DNA of 64,000 nt from Meghimatium bilineatum (taxonomy: Eukaryota; Mollusca; Gastropoda; Stylommatophora; Philomycidae), in contig CM067298.1 in the NCBI GenBank assembly GCA_034231615.1, positions 29,766,127 to 29,830,126 of the forward strand. The letters run 5' to 3'. A model generated the notes under the pieces. The model did no database searches and had not been told where the DNA came from. It worked only from the letters and a program-made list of their open reading frames with translations. The translations under genes and the position numbers were made by a program. The first letter of the stretch is position 1; each line of letters begins with the position of its first letter. Positions 11,471 to 64,000 of this stretch are shown here, one piece after another.

Positions 11471-11833
11471 TTACGATTTCCATTTGATTTTTCCGCCATT
11501 CTGTTTTGAACATGGCGCCATCCTCCCTCGATATGTTGCCCTTTCCTTGCACTTAATATGCTCACCTTATTTCTCCGGAGACTTGCTCTCGATGCTCGTG
11601 AGCATAGGATATGACAGCCCGGCAGTACAGGCCAGATGATGTCTTACTCTGCTGCGACAGCTGTGGAGAACAGAGGTGTCATTCAGAGATCGCGTTTATT
11701 CTGTGCAAACCAATCTCCTTCCTTCTCAATCTACACTATCCAGATACGATATATATAGTGTTAGCCAGACTGCTTCGCGCGAGCTTCCAATCAGTGTGTT
11801 TATAGGGTGCAACACTGGTGCTAGTACACATTA
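11471..11833. other. No gene recognised
   Basis: Unique-looking sequence with short (AT) runs between the R1.2 fragment and the minisatellite. Nothing identifiable. Confidence 0.4.
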
Positions 11834-12272
11834 GTTTTGGTACGGGAATGTGACATGAGTTTTGGTACGGGAATGTGACATGAGTTTTGGTACGATAATG
11901 TAACATTAGTTTTGGTACGGGAATGTGACGTGAGTTTTGGTACGGTAATGTAACATGAGTTTTGGTACGGGAATGTGACATGAGATTTGGTACGGGAAAA
12001 TGTGACTTGAGTTTTGGTACGGGAATGTGACATGAGTTTGGTACGGGAATGGGACATGAGTTTTGGTACGGGAATGTGACATGAGTTTTGGTGCGGGAAA
12101 ATGTGATTTGAGTTTTGGTACGGGAATGTGACATGAGTTTTGTGCGGGAAAATGTGACTTGAGTTTTGGTACGGGAATGTGACTTGAGTTTTGGTACGGG
12201 AATGTGACATGAGTTTGGTACGGGAAAATGTGACTTGAGTGTGACATGAGTACGCCAGTGTGACATGAGTTG
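11834..12272. repeat. Minisatellite, 25-bp unit, 16 units
   Basis: The unit GTTTTGGTACGGGAATGTGA-CATGA is repeated 16 times (11834 to about 12237), followed by a decayed tail. Most units are 24-25 bp. A variant with three extra bases (GGGAAAATGTGACTTGA) recurs about every third to fourth unit in the second half. The minus strand is open for up to 192 codons, only because the unit lacks stop codons in these frames. Confidence 0.95.
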
Positions 12273-13574
<1,302 letters not shown>

Positions 13575-23214: not shown

Positions 23215-23314
23215 NNNNNNNNNNNNNNNNNNNNNNNNNNNNNNNNNNNNNNNNNNNNNNNNNNNNNNNNNNNNNNNNNNNNNNNNNNNNNNNNNNNNNN
23301 NNNNNNNNNNNNNN
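23215..23314. other. Assembly gap (100 N)
   Basis: Exactly 100 N, the usual placeholder for a gap of unknown size. Left and right neighbours may not be adjacent in the genome. Confidence 0.99.
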
Positions 23315-48874: not shown

Positions 48875-51800
48875 GGAGTAAGTTTGCTGACCTGACAGAC
48901 AAATTCCCAAAAACCTTAAATCCAAGGATTAAAAACGTGAACAAAACTGCACAACTCCTGGCTTCTGCACTTCTTCAAGCAGCCAAGCAAACCATACCAA
49001 GAGGTGCTAGGAAAAATTACAAACCGTACTGGTCTGACGAACTCGATGAGTTGGAGAAAGAAGTGTCAAAAGCCAGAGACACAGCAGAAAAAAGCCCATC
49101 CACAGAAAACAACATATCACTAAAAGCTGCTGTAGACAAACTAAGAAAAACGACAATTACAAACACTAGGAAAAGCTGGCATGAAAAAACAGAAAATTTA
49201 AACTTCGACAAAGAGGGAAGAAAGCTATGGAAAATAACAAAAATGCTCAACAACGAAGATAACAAAACAGCACCAGTAGCTATAGAGAATGGTGGAGATG
49301 TACTCACGGGAAAGAAGGCTGCAAATCACTTTATACAGCATTACCAAAGTACTGCCTGCCAAAAAGTCGATGAAAATAGGAGAAGAGAAGTAAGAAAAGA
49401 ACTACGGAATATCGAAAAAGAGATCAGCAAAGATAAACAAGATGTCATGAATATTCCATTCGCGATCAATGAACTAAATGAAGAACTAGCAGTATTAAAA
49501 CTTAGGAAATCACCAGGCCCTGATGACATACCAAATGAACTGCTAATTCACATCGGACCATGGGGTGCAAAGGGAACGCATTGCTCTAGGCGGACCCAGG
49601 GTTAGCAGATAACCAAGATCCCAAATGTACCTCCACGCGGTGCACCCTGGAAACAGAAATACAAGCAGCTCGTGCTGATTCTGGCCAAATCTTTTGGGGA
49701 TCGTGTCCGAGAATGTGGAGGTAGCAGATGGAAAGAGATTTGACTGCACAAGAGACAGACAATATCTCCGACACCACCAGCAGCACCACATATAGCGACA
49801 CTGTCGACATACAGTGAAGCTAGTCAGTCCAGTCCGAACATTGGAGGGGCGGCCAATTTAAAATGCACGTAAAGGTAGATGCATGGCGAGAGACAAATAG
49901 ATTTCATACCGAGTACAATGAAACAATGAAAGGGCAGAACAGCGCTAGAGGGCAGCGCGAACTGCAAATAGAAAATGAAAAGTTCCTAGGAAAGGGGAAC
50001 TACAAGCTCCGTCAGCTCGAGACGAGCTTCTAGTTATCTGTGTTCCTTACAGGCAGAGACCCAGACCCATTCATTGGCGTTTGGTAAGGCAAGAAGACCT
50101 AATCCAACTCTAATGTCTAGCCTTCCTAAACCGGAAATATGCTCGCGAAGAGAAAGGGTTCCGTACTCGATACGCTCAGGCACAAAAGGGACAACGATTT
50201 AGCCCTGGCCCAACTCTACTGTCAGGTTTTCCTACACCGGAAATACACTTGAAGAGAGAAAGGGTTCAGTACCTGATGGGCTCAGGTGTTATTGGGACAA
50301 GGACGCTCAGCTCGAGAACGCCTTGCTCTCAAACGCGTGGTGTGAGACTCGAACTTGGACAAGGGGTACACGATGTCGGTGAATGACACCTCGGCTAAGA
50401 GGGTGAAAGAGCCAGGGTCCAACTCCTCTGTTGAGTTCTTCCCCTTAAGGAACCAGGCTCACGGATGATAAACGGTTCAGTACCCAATGGGCACAGGCAC
50501 AGCACGTCCAATTACACGAGGCAAGTTCATAGACAGTGGAACACCTTGTTCGAGTCAGACGAGAGCAAAAAATCGTATGGGCGAAGAGTCTCCACTACGC
50601 GTGCCTGGAGACAGATATAGAGGCTGTCACAGGCTAAGGGAAGCCCACCCGAATTGTCATGGCATGCCGAAATCGGATGTGCTAGGCCTACAAGGCGCAT
50701 AACGGTGGCACAACGTAATCACGCTCCCGGCGGAAATCGCACGGATATCCGTGATGGTTACAATGGAGCGAACGAAAAACAAACAAACGAACAAACATCG
50801 GACCATCAGCAATAAAGAAATTAATAAAAAATTTTAACAACTGTTGGGATAGAGGTCTAGTGCCACAGGTGTGGAAAACCGCCATAATGATACCCATCCA
50901 CAAGAAAGGCAAGCCAAAAAATAAGGTGGACAGCTATCGCCCAATAAGTTTGACCAGCTGTGTTTGCAAATTAATGGAGCGCCTGGTAAACAAAAGAATG
51001 ATGTGGTTCCTAGAAAAAAAAAATCCTGCTAAATCAGCAAGCTGGCTTCAGAAAGTGTAGATCAACTGAAGACCAGATTACACTAATTGCCCAGGAAGTA
51101 GAGGATGCTTTCCAGGAAAAAAGCAGACATCAGTGGTGTGGGTAGATATGGAAAAAGCCTTTGATTGTGTATGGAAAGATGGACTCCTCCTTAAACTACA
51201 ACAAAACAAAGTGACAGGGCGCATGTATTACTGGATAAAACACTACCGGCACAACCGAAAAGCAGCAGTGAAGCTTGAAATGAAGCATAGCAGAAAGAAA
51301 CTCTTTAAGCATGGAGTACCACAGGGAGGTGTTCTATCCCCCACTCTGTTTCTTATATTCATGAATGACATTGACCAAAGTCTCTCGCGTAAAGTAAATG
51401 CTGCAATGTATGCAGACGATCTGGCGATATGGTGCAGTGAAGAGAGCGTAGGCACAACAAAAATAAGGTTGCAAGAAACTATGGACAATTTGGCCAAGTG
51501 GACAGACCAGTGGGCCATGTCTATCAATGCCCAAAAAACTACCTGTACCATCTTCATCATGTCCACCAAACCACAGAAAATCCTACTAACTATAAATGGT
51601 CAAACATTGCCAAAAGATGAGACACCTACATACCTTGGAGTTACTTTTGATCCAAGACTTACATGGAAACAGCACATAGACAAGTGCCAAACAAAAGGTA
51701 CAATGAGGACAGCACTCCTTAAAAAATTGGCTGGAACAGATTGGTGTGCAAATGGAAAATTCTAAGTAGAGCATATACAGGTTATGTAAGACCAGCTTTG

Positions 51801-53129
51801 GAATATGGAATGTCAGCATGGGGGACTGCAGCCAAGAGTAACACTCAAAAGATCTCAAAGATACAAAACCGCAATCTCAGAATTATAACAGGAGGTATGA
51901 ATACTACCCCAATCACAGAAATGGAAACATGCACAGGTTTGCCATCAATGGAAGAAAGAAGAAATGAAAAAATCCTCACACGGTATGCAAAGTTCAAATG
52001 TTTGGAGAGTCATCAAATGAACCAAAGACTAAGCAGACCTACAAAAGAGCGACTCAAAAGAGGTAGGTTTCTACACTCCGCTAAACAGCTCCAGAAATCA
52101 CTCACAGATACAGACCTACAAAACCTAAAACCACTAAACACATTTAGCACATACCCAACATGGGACAGGAAAAACTTCCCAAGAATTATGGACAATATAC
52201 CAAGCATCATTTCGAAAACAGAAACTACTATACAAGTACTAAAGGAGACAACTAAGAATCACATACAGAAAGCATACCCAAAGGATATATGGACACATGT
52301 ATATACAGATGGATCAGCGAAAGAGGCAAGGCAGTATTAGATGGAGGATCAGGAATATATATAGTAACACCAGATGGAAAAGAAATATAGAAATCCATAC
52401 CCACAGGCAAATATTCCACAAATTTTAAAGCAGAAATGGAAGCCATAATAGAGGATGCCAAAATGCTCATGAATTGCTTGTCGAGTCACAACAGACATGT
52501 AGTATTTCTAACGGATGCAAAATCAGTATTGCAGGCATTGAAAGATCCAAAGAACACGAGCATGAATGAACTTACGGCCTGCTTACTACACCTCAGCAGT
52601 ACCACCAAAGAAACAGTACTGCAGTGGATCCCAGGTCACTGTGGCATACCTGGAATGGAAATGAAAAAGCTGATCTCCTGGCAAGGAAAGGAGGATCACT
52701 GGAACAAATAGAAAATGATAATACGTACTATGAAAGTAAGACCATGTTAAAAGCAGAATATAAGAAAAAGTGGAAGCAAATGCACCCAACTGCAGAACCA
52801 AATGACCCCTACCACCAAATGTCACGTAAGGAACAAACCATCATTTTCAGACTACGAACTGGTCACAACAGACTGAGAAGTCACATGTTTCGAAAGCTGA
52901 AGATTGGTGAGACAGACCTGTGCAACTGTGGACTGAGCCCAGAGACCGCAGAACACATTCTTCATGCCTGACAACTCTACAAAGAAGAGAGGGAGAAAAT
53001 ATGGCCTACCGAGACGGCACTGCTTCCAGACTTGAGGGGTTCCATGGATGACCTGAAGCGAATCACACAATTCATTGAAGCTATTGGTGCTGTAACCTGA
53101 TATCTGACTGAAGAACGATGAAGAAGAAG
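48875..53129 (+). mobile_element. LINE N1, copy 1, with nested R1.2 and target duplication
   Basis: Flanked by ACTGCGTGAAACGT at 48861-48874 and 53130-53143, an exact 14-bp duplication. The copy starts in the linker after the endonuclease and runs to a GAAGAAGAAG tail. Coding blocks in order: IPRGARKNYKPYWSDELDEL (from 49000); RKSPGPDDIPNELL (49505-49546); then R1.2 at 49561-50794; VPQVWKTAIMIPIHKKGKPK and VDSYRPISLTS (50860-50960); MEKAFDCVWKDGLLLKLQ; KHGVPQGGVLSPTLFLIFMN; YADDLAIWCSEE (51409-51444); PTYLGVTFDPRLTWKQHI. RNase H follows with VYTDGSAKEA, AEMEAII, FLTDAKSVLQAL and GNEKADLLARKG, giving D, E, D and D. The C-terminus has GHNRLRSHMFRKLKIG and CNCGLSPETAEHILHA. A few frameshifts and stops break it. 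RT plus RNase H place it in the I group, possibly the Nimb clade. Confidence 0.9.
49561..50794 (+). repeat. R1.2 element, full-length copy inside LINE N1
   Basis: A 1234-bp insert flanked by ACATCGGACCA at 49550-49560 and 50795-50805, an exact 11-bp duplication. It starts TGGGGTGCAAAGGGAACGC and ends in an A-rich tail (ACAAACAAACGAACAAAC). Within it, 50100-50300 holds two diverged versions of a block with CCGGAAATAYRCTYG...AGAGAAAGGGTTC. No protein of known type is encoded. The TSD, the A-rich tail and the lack of terminal inverted repeats point to target-primed retroposition by a LINE enzyme. Confidence 0.9.
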
Positions 53130-59703: not shown

Positions 59704-59844
59704 GTTGTCCGTGGTCACTATAAGGGTCAACAGACAGGCAAGGTCACCCAAGTTTACAGAAAGAAATTTGTGATTTATATTGAGCGCATCCAGCGAGAAA
59801 AGGCAAATGGTACAACTGTCCATGTTGGTATTCACCCCTCAAAG
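59704..59844 (+). CDS. RPL26: Ribosomal protein L26, second coding exon (codons 57-103)
   Basis: After the CAAG acceptor at 59700-59703 the frame continues in phase 0: [47 protein letters not shown]. It ends at AAG before a GTAATA donor (59845). It contains the KOW motif ([13 protein letters not shown]), an RNA-binding loop of the uL24 family. The exon is 141 bp (47 codons). The last 40 or so residues, beginning 'VVITRLKLDKDRKKI' in vertebrates, are not found before 64000, so the gene runs out of the window. Confidence 0.96.
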
Positions 59845-59919
59845 GTAATATATTTATGATCACTGTCCTGTATTTGTTATTTAGGTAACATTTTCATTGA
59901 AAGTTGTTTGCCTGTCTTC

Positions 59920-60048
59920 CCTTATGGTTTGGTTGCTGCTTGTCTCCAGAAGCAGTTAGCCAGTGTAAATAAGGGTACATTAAATGTTGGGTAGTTGAGG
60001 TGTAGACCCTTATTATTGGTCTAGCACTTTACCGATCTAACTACAATA
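59920..60048 (+). ncRNA. H/ACA box snoRNA, copy 1
   Basis: A 129-nt sequence with the full H/ACA layout. The 5' hairpin has lower stem CCTTAT/ATAAGG, upper stems TGGTT/AGCCA and CTGCTT/AAGCAG, and an internal pocket. The hinge has an H box ACATTA (fits ANANNA). The 3' hairpin has upper stem GTGTAGACC pairing with GGTCTAGCAC and lower stem AGTT/AACT. The ACA box (60043-60045) is three nucleotides from the end. The distance from the upper stem to box H is 14 nt and to ACA 15 nt, the spacing these guides need. It lies in sense orientation in a ribosomal-protein intron, the usual host for animal snoRNAs. It would guide pseudouridylation in rRNA or snRNA; the target is not determined. Confidence 0.88.
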
Positions 60049-60530
60049 TCTTTTTACTCAGTCTGCTTCAATGATTCAGTAGTGTTTAACTTTTGCTTTC
60101 TGTACCATGCCATTTTGACATATCTGAATATATTTTTTGTTCGTTTTATTTGATTGAAATTATTTTTTGTTTCATCCAGCAAATTGAAAATGAATCTAAG
60201 ATTATAATCAAAACAGATTTAAAAAAATGAAAAATACACGTAAACCCTCCTACTACATCACACCAAAGAACAAGCTATTATCTTTAAACTACACACAGCA
60301 GTGAGAAATTTTTACTGACATGTGATTAGTGAAACTTATAAAGTACAAGTTATTACCTTGAAACTGAGAAGACGCCACTAACCAGACGCCGAAACAGTTT
60401 CACGCGAAGAACAAGCTATTTATACCTTCAGACTCCTGTGTGTCCATGAAAGGGGAGTAAAGAACAGTGACACTACCTGCCAGGTATGTCAGTAAAGGTG
60501 AATAAGATTTGGGGGAGGGGGGTGTGGTAA
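60049..60530 (+). repeat. Intron segment duplicated with the snoRNA
   Basis: AGTCTGCTTCAATGATTCAG (from about 60060), GCTTTCTGTACCATGCCATT and CAAATTGAAAATGAATCTAA recur after snoRNA copies 2 and 3 (63250-63440 and 63690-63780) with many substitutions and indels. The duplicated unit is thus larger than the snoRNA. From about 60300 the similarity ends. Confidence 0.75.
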
Positions 60531-60539
60531 GACTCCCCC

Positions 60540-60690
60540 ATCCTATAAAGGGTCGAAGTGTCACCATGGGCCATAATGTTGGATTTTTAAGCAGAAAGGC
60601 AAATTTTGAAGTTAAAACTGTAGACCATGACAACGCAATACTTTCTCAGTACTACATTATACTAATCTAAGTTTGAGGGTGAATACAAAA
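60540..60690 (+). repeat. SINE-like unit (family B), divergent
   Basis: AAAGGGTCGAAGTGTCACC, AAAACTGTAGACCATGACAA, CGCAATACTTTCTCAGTACT and GTTTGAGGGTGAATAC form a 3' half of family B. A close relative is at 63805-63915. Confidence 0.55.
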
Positions 60691-60952
60691 GAAAACTATT
60701 TGGAACAGGAAACTTTTGTATTAGCTAAACTTTAATTCACTGTTCCAAGTTTCGCCTGTTGGATTTGTTTTATTGCAGTAAGTACATATTTGGACACAGC
60801 TTATTGAAAGACAGAATGTATGTACCCAATAGCTTGAAATTGCAGTGACATGCACAAGCATCAACAGCTCTATTAAATCTGGCAAGACAATAAATCCAAG
60901 ACAAATTCTTAAGATATTTTTGTGTATGTTCTCAAATTTTAACCTGATCTCT

Positions 60953-62200
60953 TATCTTCTTCTTTCTGTCCTCATGTACCTTTCGGTGTTGAGGGGAGAG
61001 TGAGTGTACAGTCTTTTTCCCTTCTATTTGCCTCCTCTGCTGTTATATTTCCGAGTGTCTCTAATACTCTATCTATCCACCTTTTACGAGGGCGTCCAAT
61101 AGGTCGCCTGCTTTCGTATCATTTGTTAAGTGTTTTTTTTATAATACTTTGCTCTTTCTGTCTGGTTATGTGGCCGTACCATTTAACTTGTTGTTTCTGT
61201 ATGTATTCTATTGTTGGCTTGATCCCTAATTGTTTCCTTAGTGCTTAATTCCTGATTTTGTCTCAAGTTAATTCCAATCATACGTCTCACACATTTCATT
61301 TCAGTGGTGTTAATCTTATGTATTGTTCTAGAATCTAATGTCCAAGTTTGACACTGATAACACAATGTTGGTAAGAAAATGGTGTTGAAAAGCGCTTTCT
61401 TTGTTTCTAGTGTAATATCTTTGTTTCTTAGTAAAGGTGTTAATTGACCAATGATCTGACAGGCCTTATTACATCTTGCGTTTATTGCTGCTTCTTGTTT
61501 GTTGTCATATCTCAATGTGCTGCCCAGATATTTGAATTCATCTACTTGTTTTAGTTGTTTATTATTTATCTGTATGTTGATGTTCTCCTTTTCTCTTGCA
61601 ATATTCATTACTTCTGTTTTGTCTATGTTGATTTTCATTCCAAATTGCTTGCCTGCTGTGTCTATTGTGTTTAGGTGGTCTTGCAGGTTTTTAATGCTGT
61701 TGTGGAATAAAACCTGGTCATCTGCAAAAAGCAGTTCATTTGCTTCATTAGAATTTGCTGTTTTGTTTATATGGTCCATGTATGTAATAAAAAGTAGTGG
61801 GGATAATACACATCCCTGCTTTACTCCTGTGCTAATCACAAAGTCCTCTGTGTAGCCTGCAGCTGTTCTTATAGAGACTTCTACAAACGTTAATTAAATG
61901 TTGGCATGCTCCATAAATTTTTAATGTTTCCCATAGTTTTTCTCGGTTACTCTGTCAAATGCTTTCTCTTGATCTATGAAGGATATGTATAAATTTTGGT
62001 TGTATTCTATTGACTTCTCTGCCAACTGTTTAAGAATAAATATTGCATCAGTACATACTCTGTTTCTTCTAAAAACCCATTTGTGTATTACTAAGTTGTT
62101 GTTCTATTACAGGTCTCAGTCATTTCTCTACTATTTTTGTAGAATACTACTTTTGCTGCCTTTCCTTTTCCATATTGGCACTATGATAGCTTATAGCTAG
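60953..62200 (-). mobile_element. RTE-like LINE, antisense in RPL26 intron, 218-codon open frame
   Basis: Minus-strand order: FLEETECVLMQYLF-like and FIDQEKAFDRV-like remains in several frames (62190-61870). An intact 218-codon frame at 61839-61183 then reads MISTGVKQGCVLSPLLFITY, ANELLFADDQVLFHNS, GMKINIDKTEVMNI, KQVDEFKYLGSTLRYDNKQE and CYQCQTWTLDSRTIHKINTT. Past a frame break the tail is RWIDRVLETLGNIT-like, ending in LTLPSTPKGT (about 60975-61090). The FADD active-site box and the whole thumb are intact. The copy is 5'-truncated before the first RT motif, so it cannot be autonomous. It separates snoRNA copies 1 and 2. Confidence 0.85.
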
Positions 62201-62209
62201 ACAAAGGTC

Positions 62210-62300
62210 ATACTAGATTTCTAGCAGCAGACTGGAAAATGATGTTGCGGTTTTATTTGTGACAATTGCCAGACATATCTGTCTTCTGCATTGTTAAATT
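62210..62300 (-). repeat. SINE-like unit (family A), partial
   Basis: GACAAAGGTCATACTAGATT, TCTAGCAGCAGACTGGAAAA, GCGGTTTTATTTGTGACAAT and CAGACATATCTGTCTTCTGC match family A in reverse. Confidence 0.55.
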
Positions 62301-63120
62301 AACACATTTCATCAGCTTTGACCAACTTTAGAAAAGTTGAATCTCAGCAAATATATACACATATAATTGAAATTTTGTGTGAATTTTTGAAATGTTATAA
62401 ATCATAAGAATTAATTTTTTAATTAAAATGCAGCCATTGGCTCGTTTATATGTGCTATAGATCAAAAGTCTACTTAACATATTTCCCAAAAACAGTTATT
62501 TGTATTAGAGTAAATTATAAATCATTTACACATGATTGGTTAATCATACAATTGGCATTACACTATTTTGTACTCTTGAACATAAGACAGACGGTGTTTA
62601 AGTTTGTATCCGGTGCTACACTCAAATTCTCCGTAAGAGGTTGCAACATAAAGTGTGTAGTTGGTAGGAAAAATGAGTGCGAGTAAAGTTTATGACGTCA
62701 CGAGTATCTCGCAAACAGATAATTTAAGAAATCATTTTAACAGGCATTATATTCAAACATGTTGGAATAGTAGACCTGCCTATTCCTAATAAACTCACAG
62801 AATCTGAAGTGGTAAAATTTCTTTTCTTGGTACACAATAATTATGCCAGCATAGATAAAGGATTTCATTCATGTAAAAAAAACCTGATATGATGGGCACA
62901 TAGAAAGGATGTATTTATTTGGTGTAAACAAAAATGATACGCAAAAATTGGCATTAATAAGTTAGATACTTAATCTGATAATTAAATTATTTTAGAGCAA
63001 AGCTAGTGAAATGTGCTATAATATGTATGTCCAGTGTTTTTTCCCACTGAACGGTGAGAATGTAAAGCATCGCTAGTATGGTAAGCTAGCTGTACAAAAG
63101 TTGTTTAGTTTGCCACTCTT
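62301..63120. other. Intron sequence, nothing recognised
   Basis: AT-rich sequence between the SINE-like fragment and snoRNA copy 2. The last 10-15 bases before each snoRNA copy (CTCTTCC type) are shared among the copies. Confidence 0.45.
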
Positions 63121-63249
63121 CCTTATGGTTTGGTTGCTGCTTGTCTCCAGAAGCAGTTAGCCAGTGTAAATAAGGGTACATTAAATGTTGGGTAGTTGAG
63201 GTGTAGACCCTTATTATTGGTCTAGCACTTTACCGATTTAACTACAATA
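63121..63249 (+). ncRNA. H/ACA box snoRNA, copy 2
   Basis: The same 129-nt structure as copy 1, with one substitution noticed (CCGATTTAACTACA for CCGATCTAACTACA). This lies in the 3' guide-pocket strand, so the two copies could differ slightly in target pairing. H box ACATTA and ACA (63244-63246) are unchanged and all stems are preserved. Confidence 0.87.
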
Positions 63250-63559
63250 TGTTTTGAAACGTAATGTTTATTAACTCTGGCTTTCTGTATACCATTTTAT
63301 CACATCTGCATGTATTTTATGTTCTGTTTTTATTTGACTGAATTGGGTTTTTTTGTTTGCATCTGGCAAATTGAAAATGACAAATCTAAGATTATCAAAG
63401 CAAAATTTGAGAAATAAAAGCAAATGTACCCAACTGGAGAGTAATAAACTCCATTCTATTACATCACGTTCAGAGTTTTTTTCACTGAGCAGTAATCATA
63501 TGTACAGTATATTGATAGTATTGTATATCTGTATGAAAGTTATTATGTTGCTACTCTTC
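63250..63559 (+). repeat. Intron segment duplicated with the snoRNA (second unit)
   Basis: CTGGCTTTCTGTATACCATT, TTTATTTGACTGAATTGGG, CAAATTGAAAATGACAAATC and CATTCTATTACATCACG match the segment after copy 1 (60100-60270). The unit between copies 2 and 3 is 439 bp long. Confidence 0.75.
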
Positions 63560-63688
63560 CCTTATGGTTTGGTTGCTGCTTGTCTCCAGAAGCAGTTAGC
63601 CAGTGTAAATAAGGGTACATTAAATGTTGGGTAGTTGAGGTGTAGACCCTTATTATTGGTCTAGCACTTTACCGATCTAACTACATGT
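63560..63688 (+). ncRNA. H/ACA box snoRNA, copy 3
   Basis: Identical to copy 1 from the first base through the ACA box (63683-63685), by eye. The three terminal bases after ACA are TGT here and ATA in copy 1. The flanking intron differs far more than this between copies. All structural boxes are intact. Confidence 0.87.
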
Positions 63689-63804
63689 TTTTATTCAGTC
63701 TGCTTCAATGATTCAGCAATTTTTATTAACTCTAGCTTTCTGTAATATACCATTTTGTCACCTCTGCATGTATTTTTAATGTGTAGGGAGGAATTTTGAA
63801 TGTT

Positions 63805-63915
63805 GGAACAGAAAGGCACATATTTCACAGTTCTGTAAACCATAACAATGCAATACTTTCTCTGGACTATACTCTCCTAATCTGAAGTTTGAGAATGAAT
63901 GCAAAAAACTATTTG
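63805..63915 (+). repeat. SINE-like unit (family B), divergent
   Basis: AAAGGCACATATTTCACAGT, TCTGTAAACCATAACAATGC, AATACTTTCTCTGGACTATA and GAAGTTTGAGAATGAATGC match 60540-60690. Confidence 0.55.
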
Positions 63916-63930
63916 GACACACGGAACATA

Positions 63931-63970
63931 ATTTATATATATATATATATATAATATATATATATATAAA
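63931..63970. repeat. Short (TA)n tract
   Basis: Two TA runs separated by AATA form a short palindromic microsatellite. Confidence 0.9.
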
Positions 63971-64000
63971 CTGTCAAACTAAGCATAATGTCCGACCATT

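Follow-up and report, generated by a model that had tools for sequence, protein, structure and literature searches.

In Drosophila, the introns of 27 ribosomal-protein genes host small nucleolar RNAs (snoRNAs) (PMC2246290; here and below, papers are cited for individual passages), and both multi-isoform families and intronic clusters of H/ACA snoRNAs are on record in that genus (a reference title in PMC2246290; PMC9149858). Animals mostly carry one snoRNA per intron (PMC11028025), and human data indicate that H/ACA families expand mostly by retroposition and not within one host gene (PMC8178906). Here we describe an intron of the ribosomal-protein gene RPL26 of the gastropod Meghimatium bilineatum that holds at least five copies, in sense to the host, of a sequence of 129 nucleotides (nt) that very probably encodes an H/ACA snoRNA. 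The locus lies in a stretch of 64,000 nt (the window; contig CM067298.1, here C1:29766127-29830126), and we searched the assembly that contains it (GCA_034231615.1; 1.61 Gb in 32 contigs) with the first copy. The gene is of a known kind, of which it adds a new member, and it stands out for its unusually high copy number, five, within one intron.

Several described systems resemble this one in part. The Drosophila guide Psi18S-525 is likewise an H/ACA RNA with several isoforms, of which 525f and 525k are named (PMC9149858); the printed 12-nt 5′ end of Psi18S-525f shows no likeness to the RPL26-intron RNA. The Drosophila mfl (Nop60B) cluster also has duplicated small-RNA genes within the introns of one host, but there each intron carries one small-RNA gene (PMC1821038), as against five in the one RPL26 intron. 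SNORA5A and SNORA5C, a pair of H/ACA snoRNAs with a common group name, lie together in one intron of TBRG4, and the stretch between them persists as a long noncoding RNA with snoRNA ends (a sno-lncRNA), sno-lnc5AC (PMC4234469). The TBRG4 intron has two copies, and the RPL26 intron has at least five. SNORA13 and its yeast counterpart snR35 share the overall H/ACA shape and give a weak model match, but they differ from our RNA in the pocket and in the predicted target, and the match falls below the gathering score. The passages found on the target site discussed below, on SRRM1 as a host, and on RPL26 or RPS17 as hosts do not describe this RNA.

A sequence-only reading of the window had reported three copies, at 59920, 63121, and 63560. 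These positions were exact, but the count was too low. The host intron is 6503 nt long (59845 to window-equivalent 66347, ends set by eye from the sequence; the next RPL26 exon lies beyond the window end), and it contains at least five copies, which we call R1 to R5. With R1 as the query, we found at least eight places in the assembly, five in this intron and three elsewhere: X6 (contig C2, 95% identity to R1), X7 (contig C14, 81%), and X8 (contig C2, 80%). X6 lies in sense within an RPS17 intron, some tens of bases past the donor site (exons on both sides by tblastn; Pfam Ribosomal_S17e, E = 3.8e-43). X7 is flanked, in sense, by serine/arginine-rich open frames. (These are at most putatively SRRM1-like: one such frame, P0001, had no PDB match at E 0.001, and the stretch around X7, L012, had no Pfam match above the cut-off.) No host was found for X8: no Pfam family matched three plus-strand frames in its 10 kb at an E-value of 0.1 or less. 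A model that we built from seven of the eight copies (leaving out R5) and ran on six sources refound all eight places, of which those seven match by construction, plus one weak antisense match of 16.3 bits.

The copies in the RPL26 intron are more alike within the RNA than around it. Over the structured part, R1, R2, and R3 differ by a single substitution (63238, C to T in R2), which turns a G-C pair into G-U within a helix; this agrees with the earlier description of about one base of difference. The three bases past the ACA also differ in R3, and across the whole 129 nt the differences rise to 2 of 129 (R2 versus R3) and 3 of 129 (R2 versus R4). We counted flank divergence only in stretches that BLAST could align and compared it with the core by Fisher's test. 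The core of R1 differs from those of R2 to R5 by 0–1 changes in 126–129 positions, while its flanks differ at 25/160, 19/111, 23/184, and 41/287 positions from those of R2, R3, R4, and R5, respectively (12.5–17.1%; p from 6e-6 to 1e-7). The flanks of R2 diverge by 17.9% from those of R3 (p = 3e-6) and by 8% from those of R4 and R5 (p = 0.016 and 0.0015), and the flanks of R3, R4, and R5 diverge from one another by 2.8–6.1% (p from 0.003 to 0.07). So, the contrast between core and flank is strong for R1 and weak for the young copies R3 to R5, which by themselves prove little. Equal divergence inside and outside the 129-nt blocks, which the sequence-only reading had named as evidence against its proposal, is not what we see, and its statement that the surrounding duplicated sequence has diverged holds well for R1 and weakly for R3 to R5.

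That reading attributed the sameness of the core to selection or gene conversion. Our comparison supports selection on the RNA as the likely cause. As for gene conversion, 30 core columns vary in X6 to X8, and at these columns R2 to R5 show 0 differences from R1. At 14% divergence about 4 differences would be expected, and by simple arithmetic zero has about a 1% chance, so gene conversion among the copies is possible, though not needed and not demonstrated. The tandem unit is about 440–460 nt. The distances between the starts of R1 and R2 (3201 nt) and of R3 and R4 (1342 nt) are wider, probably from later insertions; we read the spacing this way because a reverse-transcriptase-like open frame lies at 61183-61839, on the minus strand between R1 and R2.

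The folds and a check of the boxes bore out both hairpins, box H (ACATTA), and box ACA in the three window copies. Fold z-scores for R1, R2, and R3 were −4.2, −3.2, and −3.6, and for each of them 0/200 shuffles folded as well; X6 had a z-score of −5.4. The two-hairpin H/ACA shape was the best fold for five of the six copies that we folded singly (R1 to R3, X6, and X7, but not X8). The alignment has 8 distinct rows and 35 pairs, and pairing is kept in 97.8% of its 277 cells. Two-sided (compensatory) change occurs in 4 pairs, versus 1.2 in shuffles; 3/500 shuffles reach 4 and 1/500 reaches the covariation score, but these counts are not probabilities, as five of the eight rows are near-identical and the changes come from X6 to X8. 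When the partners were slid by 1–3 columns, just 0–1 pairs had two-sided change. Box H fits ANANNA in 6/8 copies (R1 to R5 and X7), and box ACA is present in 8/8. The distance from pocket to box in H/ACA RNAs is 14–16 nt. Here the 5′ pocket lies 15 nt from box H in 8/8 copies, and the 3′ pocket lies 13 nt from ACA (14 in X8), a distance that opening a weak A-U pair would raise to 14; the earlier figure of 14–15 nt therefore fits the 5′ hairpin and fits the 3′ hairpin only loosely.

Some of these results weigh against a functional H/ACA snoRNA at every copy. X7 and X8 fold no better than chance (z = −1.05, with 30/200 shuffles as good, and z = −0.66, with 42/200), and the best fold of X8 is not H/ACA-shaped. 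In X6 and X8, box H is ACATTG, with the final A replaced by G. Also, the structure that we counted is the consensus fold of the same alignment that was used for the covariation test, in addition to the near-identity of rows already mentioned. Finally, neither the window nor the stretches L010-L013 (X7 and X8 lie in L012 and L013) gave a match at the gathering score of any Rfam family, which leaves standing the earlier remark that no known snoRNA could be named.

A different explanation for the array is that the copies are dead recent repeats, mobile or segmental, which carry an old snoRNA and are alike through youth or gene conversion. R3 to R5 are indeed young, a reverse-transcriptase-like frame sits inside the intron, and X6 and the RPL26 copies have about 90 nt of downstream flank in common. 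However, R1 has kept its core while its flanks diverged, the likeness of X7 and X8 to the RPL26 copies begins and stops near the RNA itself, and the covariation extends over all eight copies. We consider dead repeats improbable. Instead, the structure, the boxes, the covariation, the placement of copies in sense within introns of RPL26 and RPS17, and a plausible target in 18S uphold the proposal of an H/ACA snoRNA in the RPL26 intron, and we are highly confident that the sequence specifies a functional RNA of this class.

Which H/ACA snoRNA is it? The best permissive Rfam match is SNORA13 (RF00396), with 29.9 bits and E = 0.0015 over the full model, but the gathering score of 53 is far off. 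The TtnuHACA5 model scores nearly as well (28.5 bits), so the SNORA13 match mostly reflects general H/ACA shape. Also, UUUGAC-U-CAACAC, the site of U1248, is present in this 18S ribosomal RNA, and by eye the pocket (AGUGUA/GGUUU) is unable to pair with it. We rejected membership in SNORA13 on these grounds, and it is very improbable that the RNA is a diverged homologue of SNORA13/snR35 that guides 18S U1248. H/ACA RNAs of the small Cajal body class (scaRNAs) have the motif UGAG, the CAB box, in a terminal loop; the terminal loops of R1 as folded contain no UGAG (by eye), and we rejected this identity as well.

The sequence-only reading had suggested a search for complementarity between the pockets and ribosomal RNA (rRNA), and for the 5′ pocket this gave a plausible match to 18S. 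The scan covered the 18S of this genome (L030, 414 to 2163, with the 3′ end missing), 5.8S, and pieces of 28S. (The 18S and 28S pieces are scattered across many contigs, L030-L033, L038, and L044-L047, and are often cut or run into other sequence; the piece of 28S from L038 stops close to what we take to be the insertion site of R2 elements.) Within GAGUACACU-U-U-AAACCC, the 5′ pocket would form 6 bp on the upstream side of U544 and 5 bp on its downstream side (11 bp, score 26). At the natural upper-stem boundary this score was reached in 2/400 dinucleotide-shuffled 18S sequences, a figure that flatters the match, since the shuffle test followed a scan over many pocket boundaries; with two boundaries it was reached in 4/400. 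U544 lies 40 nt before U584, which is the U of GGUGCCAGC in this 18S. U544 presumably corresponds to human U572, on the basis of the human sequence and the equivalence of human G626 with E. coli G530. Pseudouridine 572 of human 18S is named in a cryo-EM study (PMC10164566).

It is possible, although we think it rather less likely, that this is a genuine H/ACA snoRNA that has another target (28S or a small nuclear RNA [snRNA]) or is an orphan, and that the 18S match is due to chance. First, the target scan was limited to 18S short of its 3′ end, 5.8S, and pieces of 28S. Second, a rival register of the 5′ pocket on a 28S piece (L038, CUGG-U-A-CGGACCAG) scores 28, above the 18S hit, but it forms only if the upper stem opens at its base, losing the closing GG/CC pairs. 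Third, in X7 and X8 a U replaces the A beside the target base and that pair is lost, and X7 has one further mismatch. By eye, X7 keeps 9/11 and X8 10/11 of the pairs to the 18S site, and a strict scan no longer returns U544 for either; in the strict scan their 5′ pockets fit 5.8S U84 (copy in L020), with scores of 22 and 20, and X7 and X8 may have changed their target to 5.8S. Fourth, the bases of the 3′ pocket (GTAGTTGAGG, ACTTTACC) are invariant in 8/8 copies, yet they have no convincing partner: no match to 18S appeared at the first boundary, and nothing convincing in 5.8S or in the 28S pieces scanned. We rejected 18S U694 for this pocket (five boundaries, score 29, 3/400 shuffles) because the pairing uses bases of the lower stem and is lost in X7 and X8. 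On the other side, the 18S match of the 5′ pocket is strong for its size at the natural boundary, and it lands on what is, by this presumed numbering, a known human pseudouridine.

Overall, we favor, with moderate confidence, an intronic H/ACA guide that was amplified locally and has 18S U544 as its target. The RNA would be made as part of the RPL26 pre-mRNA, dyskerin and its partners would bind it during intron excision, and it would be trimmed to about 129 nt. The 5′ pocket (GGUUU/AGUGUA) would then pair with UACACU-U-U-AAACC of 18S, and U544 would become pseudouridine. Tandem duplication of the unit would have given the five copies, some of which were probably pushed further from one another by later insertions. 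Transcription, processing, dyskerin binding, and the target are inferred from the sequence.

Table 1. Coordinates of the RPL26 host exons and intron and of the snoRNA copies (window positions unless stated; "own model" is our model built from seven copies, which its source copies match by construction)
Feature	Position	Strand	Remarks
RPL26 exon with start codon	57937..58107	+	residues 1-57 matched, 86% identity (tblastn, human RPL26 query)
RPL26 second coding exon	59704..59844	+	splice donor GT at 59845, boundary by eye
Host intron, in-window part	59845..64000	+	continues to window-equivalent 66347
H/ACA snoRNA copy R1	59920..60048	+	129 nt, predicted to end three bases past ACA; 162.4 bits, own model
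R1 5′ hairpin	59920..59974	+	fold and pair counts
R1 5′ arm of 5′ pocket (GGUUU)	59926..59930	+	predicted pairing to 18S AAACC
R1 3′ arm of 5′ pocket (AGUGUA)	59962..59967	+	predicted pairing to 18S UACACU
R1 box H (ACATTA, fits ANANNA)	59977..59982	+	
R1 3′ hairpin	59986..60041	+	fold and pair counts
R1 box ACA	60043..60045	+	
H/ACA snoRNA copy R2	63121..63249	+	155.6 bits, own model; one substitution at 63238
R2 box H	63178..63183	+	
R2 box ACA	63244..63246	+	
H/ACA snoRNA copy R3	63560..63688	+	160.1 bits, own model
R3 box H	63617..63622	+	
R3 box ACA	63683..63685	+	
H/ACA snoRNA copy R4	window-equivalent 64902-65030		beyond window end, same RPL26 intron
H/ACA snoRNA copy R5	window-equivalent 65358-65486		beyond window end, same RPL26 intron
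X7	L012:4935-5068		5′ pocket fits 5.8S U84
X8	L013:5004-5131		5′ pocket fits 5.8S U84

Elsewhere in the window, several open frames on the plus strand at 48937-52971, upstream of RPL26 (for example, 51133-51765), are presumably reverse-transcriptase-like. Near X6 lies a piece with 91% likeness to window positions 60955-61365, which overlap the reverse-transcriptase-like frame in the RPL26 intron. An open frame on the minus strand at 11736-12314 consists of a short repeated unit (SHSRTKTHVT-like) and is probably tandem repeat DNA, and a run of 100 N at 23215-23314 is probably an assembly gap.

A more speculative idea, which we consider unlikely, is that RPL26 yields a mixture of guide RNAs and stable H/ACA-ended sno-lncRNAs tied to ribosomal-protein output. 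Long intron RNAs with snoRNA ends might arise because trimming enzymes halt at each of the five snoRNA-protein particles in the 6.5-kb intron. If true, this would be a five-headed case of the sno-lncRNA, a form documented in human, rhesus, and mouse (PMC4234469). Apart from this, the locus adds an H/ACA RNA that falls below every Rfam threshold in the stretches searched and has a likely, predicted target in 18S. It also offers a clean natural case of H/ACA copy amplification within one intron, and as such the RPL26 array bears on the rule of one snoRNA per intron (PMC11028025) and on the conclusion from human data that these families grow mostly by retroposition (PMC8178906).

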